In this document: positions 42,775-44,072 of the stretch, in pieces | Layout of the letters: each line of letters opens with the position of its first letter | Position numbering within the stretch: the stretch's first letter is position 1 | Source: Chitinophaga pinensis | GTDB taxonomy: Bacteria; Bacteroidota; Bacteroidia; NS11-12g; UBA955 | Length of the DNA stretch: 50,825 nt | Assembly (NCBI GenBank): GCA_945860565.1 | Contig: CAMAQS010000008.1 | Span: 1-50,825 of the forward strand | Reading direction: 5' to 3' | Program-made: the position numbers and the translations under genes | The notes under the pieces: model-generated | The model's input: only the letters and a program-made list of their open reading frames with translations | Database searches by the model: none | Told to the model about the DNA's origin: nothing

Positions 42775-42796
42775 TAGTTTATAAAATAATACATTG

Positions 42797-42827
42797 AAGG
42801 CTGTCTCAAAAGGGCAGCCTTTTTTTT
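42797..42827 (+). terminator. Intrinsic terminator of dnaN
   Basis: Stem AAGGCTGTC (42797-42805) pairs with GGCAGCCTT (42813-42821) with one G-U pair and a 7-base loop, running into eight T (42820-42827). Confidence 0.88.
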
Positions 42828-42833
42828 GATATC

Positions 42834-42926
42834 CCGATAACCGACCGGAATCCGGCCGGGCCGACCCCTATTTGGTTGGGTCGACCCTGGTGGTCGACCG
42901 AAATATCGTCGGGTCGACCGATAACC
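42834..42926. repeat. Left REP cluster
   Basis: Three GGTCGACC palindromes at 42879-42886, 42892-42899 and 42912-42919, the first within the 10-base palindrome GGGTCGACCC. Upstream is a CCGGAATCCGG palindrome (42845-42855) running into CCGGCCGG. The octamer CGATAACC occurs at both edges (42835-42842 and 42919-42926). The first two palindromes form the 23-base unit GGGTCGACCC, TGGT, GGTCGACCG. Confidence 0.75.
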
Positions 42927-42937
42927 AATTGCGAATT

Positions 42938-43450
42938 TTATTCCTTTTTCTTCTTTTTTGATGGATTTTCTTTGATATAATTAGAAATACGAAAGTAGGA
43001 TTCCTGGGTTTTAAAAATAACGTCCCAATAACTTAGTTGCCACAATTTTTTATGAAAGGGTTTCCAATTGGATTGTTTTACTCCTTGGATATAATTTACC
43101 GTTACAATAGATTTAAATGCCCCGATCATATCTCCAATCGTTTTTCGTTTAATTTCTGTAGCATTTTCACCTATTGAACTTGACACAATTTCTAATATAG
43201 CATGAAAATGATTCGGCATAACAACGAAACTATGCAAAACGATGTTGTGATATCGACTAGTTAGCATTAACCATTCATTATGGACCATTTTACCCGCTTC
43301 ATTTAATATCATTTCTCTATTAACTATTTGCCCAAATAAACAAAGCTTATTTTGTGTGCTAATGGTTATAAAATAATAGCCTGGTTTTGAGTAATCGTAG
43401 CCCTTTAAACGGATAATCTTTCGTTGGGGTTTCTTGGGGTCGTGTTGCAT
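42938..43450 (-). CDS. REP-associated tyrosine transposase (RAYT, Y1/HUH family)
   Basis: 170 residues from the ATG at 43450; the frame stays open to another ATG at 43507 (189 residues), but the family N-terminus RKIIRLKGYDYSKPGYYFITI begins just after the later one. The HUH metal motif is H81-F-H83 in VMPNHFHAI. The nucleophile tyrosine is probably Y141 (LWQLSYWDVIF) or Y120. RAYTs are single-copy relatives of IS200 transposases that nick REP hairpins and spread or maintain them. No tnpB accompanies it. A Lys-rich tail ends the protein. An inverted repeat AATCTT/AAGATT (43459-43475) precedes the start. It is flanked by the REP clusters listed here. Confidence 0.88.
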   Translation of the reverse strand: MQHDPKKPQRKIIRLKGYDYSKPGYYFITISTQNKLCLFGQIVNREMILNEAGKMVHNEWLMLTSRYHNIVLHSFVVMPNHFHAILEIVSSSIGENATEIKRKTIGDMIGAFKSIVTVNYIQGVKQSNWKPFHKKLWQLSYWDVIFKTQESYFRISNYIKENPSKKKKKE

Positions 43451-43574
43451 AATTTCAGAATCTTTTGTTAAGATTATTTTGAATTGTCTTGCATTAACGA
43501 CTAACATTTAAATATGTTGCAGTCTGTGAATCGCTTTGTGACTTGAATATTTGCAATTTTCACAAAGACGGCTT

Positions 43575-43679
43575 GGATCGACCCGTAATCTGTTGGGTCG
43601 ACCCTATATGGTTTGTCGACCCATGTGGTCGCCCGGATTATAGACCCTGTTAGTCTACCAGTAATCTGTTTGCCGACCA
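43575..43679. repeat. Right REP cluster: tandem, partly decayed copies
   Basis: GGATCGACCC (43575-43584) and GGGTCGACCC (43595-43604) form an inverted pair around GTAATCTGTT. GTCGACCC (43615-43622) and GGTCGCCC (43627-43634) make a copy of the 23-base unit at 43613-43635 with 18 of 23 matches. A further decayed copy follows with arms TAGAC/GTCTA (43641-43657). The decamer GTAATCTGTT recurs at 43585-43594 and 43661-43670, suggesting tandem duplication. Confidence 0.65.
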
Positions 43680-43740
43680 ACTTGTAAAAGAAAAATTTGG
43701 AAAGATTTTTTGGAACAATGTCTCAATGTGCATTGTGTAT

Positions 43741-43786
43741 ATGGTGCATCGGTCGACCACAAGGGTCGACCCCACATTATGGTGCA
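43741..43786. repeat. Inverted REP copy bracketed by an 8-base direct repeat
   Basis: The 23-base unit lies at 43750-43772 in the opposite orientation to the left copy (GGTCGACC, ACAA, GGGTCGACCC). ATGGTGCA occurs at 43741-43748 and again at 43779-43786, so the copy is framed by an exact direct repeat, as after insertion of a mobile unit. Chance cannot be excluded for eight bases. Confidence 0.6.
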
Positions 43787-43803
43787 GTTAATTCAAGGGA
43801 ATG

Positions 43804-43852
43804 ATTATTTAAAATAATGTGCAATTGGAAAGATAATCAATGGAAATCATTG
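43804..43852. repeat. AT-rich palindromes in the RAYT-yggS spacer
   Basis: ATTATTT-A-AAATAAT (43804-43818) and CAATG-GAAAT-CATTG (43838-43852) are perfect inverted repeats. A third CAATG-TG-CATTG lies at 43724-43735. No coding potential is seen around them. Confidence 0.4.
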
Positions 43853-43928
43853 CAAATTATTGATGGTTAATTTTGCATTACGCTATTGGTTCGACGCTAT
43901 CTGTCGATTGATATAAATGCCGGATTTC

Positions 43929-44004
43929 CCGGAATATTGAAATCTAAAATAGAAGAATCAATCAATAAGCAATATCCGGTTGGATTGACCCTAGTGGTGG
44001 CCCA
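43929..44004. repeat. Hairpin and decayed REP copy near the end of yggS
   Basis: CCGGAATATTG (43929-43939) and CAATATCCGG (43970-43979) can pair with a one-base bulge around a 30-base loop. Directly after it, 43982-44004 matches the 23-base REP unit at 17 of 23 positions in the same orientation as the left copy. Confidence 0.5.
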
Positions 44005-44072
44005 ATTTTCAAATTGTAATCTAATCTCCATTAAACATGGTCTGCACAAAACCACCTAATTCAATTCCACCC

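Follow-up and report, generated by a model that had tools for sequence, protein, structure and literature searches.

The described transposase systems that appear closest to the locus considered here are the RAYT (TnpA_REP) enzymes of subclass 2.4 (Bertels group 4), which have been reported in Bacteroidetes and Cyanobacteria and whose REPs often lie within the gene itself (Quentin et al. 2018, PMC6006769). The E. coli enzyme reads the head of its REP with W94, Q95, E100, H101 and R104 (PMC6006769), and no substitution in its GTAG head is tolerated, whereas in Marinomonas Mb a change of the third head base shifts the cleavage site (PMC8266576).

The window, meaning the whole stretch of 50,825 nt that was analysed, is an entire contig (C8) of a 2.39-Mb genome comprising 156 contigs (88% complete). 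Between dnaN and yggS it contains an intergenic space of 1298 bp (42775-44072) that holds a RAYT gene together with REPs. As the earlier note had observed, the 23-base unit at 42878-42900 (GGGTCGACCCTGGTGGTCGACCG) and the reverse complement of the unit at 43750-43772 (GGGTCGACCCTTGTGGTCGACCG) differ at a single base (22/23 identical) and enclose a transposase gene; the RAYT reading frame (42938-43507, minus strand) is intact between them. In a repeat search, the inverted pair grew to 42875-42901 and 43749-43775 (27 nt, 93% complementary, with 847 nt between). Around it lie degenerate REP arms (CGACCGG...GGCCGACC; 42842-42866) directly after the terminator-like hairpin of dnaN, an additional head with a single arm, GTCG GGTCGACC (42908-42919, plus strand), degraded units clustered upstream of the RAYT gene (GATCGACC, GTTG GGTCGACC, and TGTCGACC CATGT GGTCGCCC; 43575-43681), and a degenerate unit, GGATTGACC CTAGT GGTGGCCC, near the yggS end (43983-44004, plus strand). 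With degraded units on both sides of the full ones, the intergenic space as a whole forms a small cluster of REPs.

Assignment of the gene draws on a family profile, a structure match and motifs. The NCBIfam profile NF047646 (REP_Tyr_transpos) matched with an E-value of 2.4e-14 and 53.5 bits, under its curated cut-off of 80, and a profile built from RAYT relatives matched E. coli TnpA_REP (PDB 4er8) at 4.4e-7; a Pfam search with the window RAYT gave no match. The HUH motif (H100-F-H102) and the single catalytic Tyr (Y177-IKE-NP) are conserved in the alignment, and the W156 Q157 pair is present. Since homologues begin at M20 of the window protein, the true start is probably at 43450, giving a predicted protein of 170 aa. 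An AlphaFold run on three sequences returned a pLDDT of 37, and this unusable model was left out of the evidence. A comparison with the nearest relative yielded a pN of 0.22 against a saturated pS of 0.87, which points to purifying selection on the RAYT. A pseudogene was considered and rejected, given the open reading frame and the low pN relative to pS, though dS is saturated. The gene is single-copy, and two distant RAYT-like genes occur elsewhere in the same genome, on contigs C26 and C48 (31% and 28%). Membership of IS200/IS605 was not indicated, as NF033573 reached only E 0.23 and the single gene has no near-identical copies.

The enclosing repeats follow a simple plan: a 4-nt head (GTNG), an 8-nt arm, a CTNGT loop and a second 8-nt arm, forming a perfect 8-bp stem. 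The plus-strand unit at 42875-42899 consists of head GTTG, arm GGTCGACC, loop CTGGT and arm GGTCGACC (-9.6 kcal/mol, z -3.75; 38.3 bits), and the minus-strand unit at 43751-43775 of head GTGG, arm GGTCGACC, loop CTTGT and arm GGTCGACC (-9.3 kcal/mol, z -3.80; 39.8 bits), so that both fold as single-stranded DNA at about -9.5 kcal/mol (z about -3.8). The two units are mutually inverted, with both heads facing outward from the RAYT gene. Two palindromes per unit had been described previously; they are present, but are corrected here to the two arms of one hairpin closed by the CTNGT loop. Likewise, the GTT seen ahead of the units belongs to a 4-nt head, GTNG, that occupies the position of the canonical GTAG. 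In an alignment of 18 units, filtered in part for hairpins, seven of the eight stem pairs change on both sides (covariation score 0.46 versus 0.13 when shuffled). Because of that filtering, the better covariation evidence comes from the unfiltered matches in genome G097, where sequences at two mismatches carry mostly compensatory pairs (for example GTCGCCC/GGGCGAC) around an unchanged loop.

Copies of the unit extend beyond this space, and all copy numbers given here are counts from pattern or model searches. At up to one mismatch, GGTCGACC occurs 17 times in the window against 5.2 expected, a count reached in 0 of 100 shuffles, and the pattern GGTCGACC-N3-25-GGTCGACC occurs nine times genome-wide against none for the reversed control. 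A pattern search allowing three mismatches returned 14 matches on contigs C8, C49, C83 and C153 against one in the control (roughly 10-14 overall against 0-1), and a covariance model recovered nine. Chance palindromes were ruled out as a source by the shuffle, reversed-control and pattern-control counts. The repeat is thus not confined to this locus; the units read on these four contigs lie between the main ORFs, as an intergenic, multicopy repeat of low number (9-14), whereas classical REPs exceed 100 per genome. Contigs C49 and C83 terminate 10 and 73 bp past a unit; it is therefore probable that the repeat interrupts the assembly and that the copy counts are too low. On C83 (G000:C83:7690-7765; L010 3195-3265), a half-REP has been amplified in tandem as a 14-nt head-to-tail array, GGTCGAACCCTTGT, of about four copies.

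Within the genus, RAYT and repeat are missing together: the RAYT was absent from 13 of 13 same-genus genomes, and so was the REP when sought in the same 13 with both the pattern and the covariance model. At the eight dnaN-yggS junctions that could be read among them, a RAYT was found at none. The gap measures 6-180 bp in five of these and about 0.65-1 kb, with a different small gene, in three, which makes the junction a variable spot in the genus and prevents an exact insertion boundary from being placed. In one congener (G002; L178), the gap contains a GGTAGAG tandem array.

An IS-like element in which RAYT and REPs travel jointly, with the inverted REPs as its ends, would fit both a gene bounded by inverted REPs and congeners without a RAYT at this junction. 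We nevertheless consider it unlikely, as the window gene exists in one genomic copy, further REP remnants lie outside the inverted pair, the other REP loci of the genome have no RAYT in view, and the variable junction yields no precise target boundary.

A survey of 395 genomes of the class detected a RAYT (E 1e-25 or better) in 34 and a match to the REP model in 41. Both were present in 16 of the 34 RAYT genomes against 3.5 expected (odds ratio 11.9, p 6e-9), and in 12 of 30 against 2.8 once the four genomes used in building the model were removed (odds ratio 9.0, p 2e-6), although these p-values are optimistic because the surveyed genomes are related to one another. Many of the model matches fall in or beside RAYT genes. 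Together with the joint absence in congeners, this co-occurrence speaks against a repeat equally common in genomes without the RAYT. The model found no match in the remaining 18 of 34 RAYT genomes, so those relatives use other REPs. In a tree built from 59 RAYTs, the window protein clusters with those of G015 and G355 (93/80) inside a group of eight (88/73), with moderate branch supports around it and a long branch of its own (0.83 versus 0.1 in its sisters). In six of the other seven members the hairpin lies within the RAYT gene or next to it; for the remaining one, G355, the REP model gave matches at that place. In the nearest relative, G015 (61%), a unit of the form GTAGGGGCGACC-CTTGT-GGTCGCCC lies inside the gene.

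By its motifs and by the in-gene REPs of its relatives, the window RAYT fits subclass 2.4. The motifs NH[IFV]H, WQ and YIxNNP of that subclass appear here as NHFH, WQ and YIKENP, with E replacing the first N, so that YIxxNP is shared, as are an occurrence in Bacteroidetes and long hairpins, headed by GT[AG]G in some of the units here. Near relatives of the window gene contain an in-frame REP (GTA GGG TCG ACC CTT GTG GTC GAC, encoding VGSTLVVD), as in subclass 2.4. Such in-gene REPs are present in L028, L126, L127, L219 and L221 and absent from the window gene, which has flanking REPs only; in-gene REPs are predominant in the subclass rather than universal. The window protein further differs from subclass 2.4 in its guide contacts (D/V/K instead of E/H/R) and in a head loosened to GTNG. 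Similarity to E. coli TnpA_REP (group 2) extends to the HUH/Y1 core, the REPtron arrangement with flanking REPs, and the guide-region W and Q; the E. coli REP, in contrast, has a bulged stem and a strict GTAG, where the window REP has a perfect 8-bp stem, a CTNGT loop and a GTNG head. Subclass 2.6 shares a Bacteroidetes host and REPs without strict GT[AG]G (PMC6006769). It is distinguished, however, by YIH[QN]NP, an insertion of 21 residues and structures that are weak and atypical; among the relatives of the window gene, hairpins are instead canonical and strong, and REPs occur inside the gene as they do in 2.4. Overall, the missing internal REP, the three changed guide contacts and the loose third head base make the locus only slightly unusual.

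Taken together, the identity of the RAYT, the enclosing units, their joint absence in congeners and the class-wide co-occurrence agree with the earlier proposal of a RAYT with its cognate REP. We put the probability at about 0.9 that the locus is a REPtron, that is, a single-copy, domesticated IS200-like HUH tyrosine transposase (RAYT/TnpA_REP, of subclass 2.4 by features and relatives) with flanking REPs of its cognate class. Most likely, judging from sequence comparison, the RAYT acts on the enclosing hairpin; since the genome contains two other RAYT-like genes, assignment of the REPs to the window RAYT rests on position and clade. In such a system, the REP strand, once single-stranded (for example, as lagging-strand template), would fold into the GTNG-headed hairpin, whose head and loop the RAYT would read; its catalytic tyrosine would then cut near the hairpin, and the strand would be rejoined. 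Over evolutionary time, REPs may have been copied or moved in this way into a few intergenic sites.

The earlier note had also suggested a recognition code particular to this system. A RAYT with its own code, in which D162, V163 and K166 (at the positions of E. coli E100, H101 and R104) accept any third head base, is unlikely, although there are observations in its favour. The guide positions of the window protein read W, Q, D, V and K, where those of G015 and most relatives end in E, H and R, and it is the sole D/V/K RAYT in the survey. The full hairpins of its genome are varied (GTTG three times, GTAG three times, GTCG, GTGG and one TTAT; n=9), and looser units add the heads GTGC, GTCG and ATCC; GTAG, the hairpin foot of the superfamily, is seen class-wide, and here 3/9 full hairpins carry GTAG and 1/9 GTGG. 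Steering of cleavage by the third head base also has the precedent of Marinomonas Mb cited above. Against this, the evidence comes from one genome; a non-A third base, found in 5/8 heads here versus 5/22 in other Bacteroidia, is not a significant excess (p 0.08); GTTG heads also accompany E/H/R RAYTs (L219, L221); the flanks of nine units display no cleavage dinucleotide matching the guide base; and drift in old REP copies would give the same variety of heads. A code of its own thus survives only as a hint, given by the changed contact residues and by a loose third head base that falls short of significance. The published head-reading data and the D/V/K change do make acceptance of GTNG by the window RAYT testable. 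A still more tentative possibility is that a RAYT with changed contacts tolerates any third head base such that each REP copy could direct its own cleavage dinucleotide (C plus the complement of N); if true, the REP population would have several insertion specificities within one genome.

It is improbable that another RAYT of the genome, on C26 or C48, serves the repeats and that the window gene is a bystander. One Flavobacteriales genome (G027) does carry CGTCGACC-CTNGT hairpins, and the one RAYT detected there, distant from the window RAYT (about 28%), belongs to the clade of the C26 gene. However, the palindrome flanking the C26 RAYT (G000:C26:3833-4565; L185 1333-2073) is another one, GCCAAGGCATGCCTT, in the forms GCGCCAAGGCATGCCTTGGCGG and GTAGCGCCAAGGCATGCCTTTACGCTAC with a GTAG...CTAC double foot, and it is essentially restricted to that locus, bar one match at two mismatches. 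Moreover, RAYTs of the C26 clade have no adjoining CTNGT hairpin of the window type, while the window gene's close relatives have such hairpins inside the gene or next to it. A distinct palindrome at C26 agrees with the published rule that every RAYT has its own REP. Least probable is that the GGTCGACC palindromes have nothing to do with the RAYT and serve as double-strand sites of a dimeric regulator, or as terminators. Both arms do form perfect 8-bp palindromes, and two loci (dnaN on C8 and one on C83) start directly after terminator-like hairpins; but related REPs keep loop and head with non-palindromic arms (GGGCGACC/GGTCGCCC), stem changes are compensatory, and the hairpin co-occurs with RAYTs.

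The hairpin is also found in other lineages. When 84,980 species genomes were scanned for GTCGACCCTNGTGGTCGAC, with the head left free, 55 stretches emerged, 13 of which have GTAG directly before the stem and many others of which are single, high-GC, chance-like matches. The unit is multicopy in a Chloroflexi MAG (CRAIB_MAG58), in a Thermomicrobiales genome (ACE_NR_CHLO14) and in a Flavobacteriales MAG from the family to which the window belongs, a MAG in which most heads are GAAA; HKST-UBA75 contains many related units. In an Oscillospiraceae MAG (Bacillota) the hairpin adjoins a RAYT, and Cloacibacterium rupense and a Bacteroidia MAG each have one GTAG-headed unit in frame within a RAYT gene. 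With multicopy hairpins in Chloroflexota MAGs and one beside a RAYT in Bacillota, the idea of a Bacteroidota-specific class is rejected. Nor is the class set apart by lacking GTAG: nearly all units in multicopy genomes outside Flavobacteriales are GTAG-headed, as are the in-gene units of near relatives, with GTNG seen here. Among the papers searched, none was found on the exact repeat or on its peptide, VGATLVVAP.

Several variants of the unit were recorded alongside. In G027 (CANHTS Flavobacteriales RE-26jul17-241), L089, L093, L100 and L195, stem and loop are kept while GAAA(C) replaces the GTAG head. L129 (HKST-UBA75) has a RAYT with GTAG-headed, CTTGT-loop hairpins in which the stems are replaced (CAGCGGAG, CGGGGCAG), and G098 (ACE_NR_CHLO14) holds several GTCGACC-TTTAT-GGTCGAC copies, with stem kept and loop changed, alongside the CTNGT type. 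No relative of the window RAYT was found on viral contigs; a single contig classed as viral (L070, IMGVR_UViG_3300031555_010585, 418-438) has the repeat, as one unit of this REP class with a GTAG head.

The locus is therefore a further example of a known gene-plus-repeat system, not a new Bacteroidota-only class. The RAYT-REP systems that fit subclass 2.4 gain from it a clear example in Flavobacteriales, with a simple hairpin consensus (GTNG head, covarying stem and CTNGT loop) common to Bacteroidota, Chloroflexota and Bacillota. Published RAYT biochemistry, as reviewed, covers groups 2 and 3 only, and a natural D/V/K RAYT, together with near relatives that have E/H/R and the same stem, offers a handy pair for tests of guide reading.
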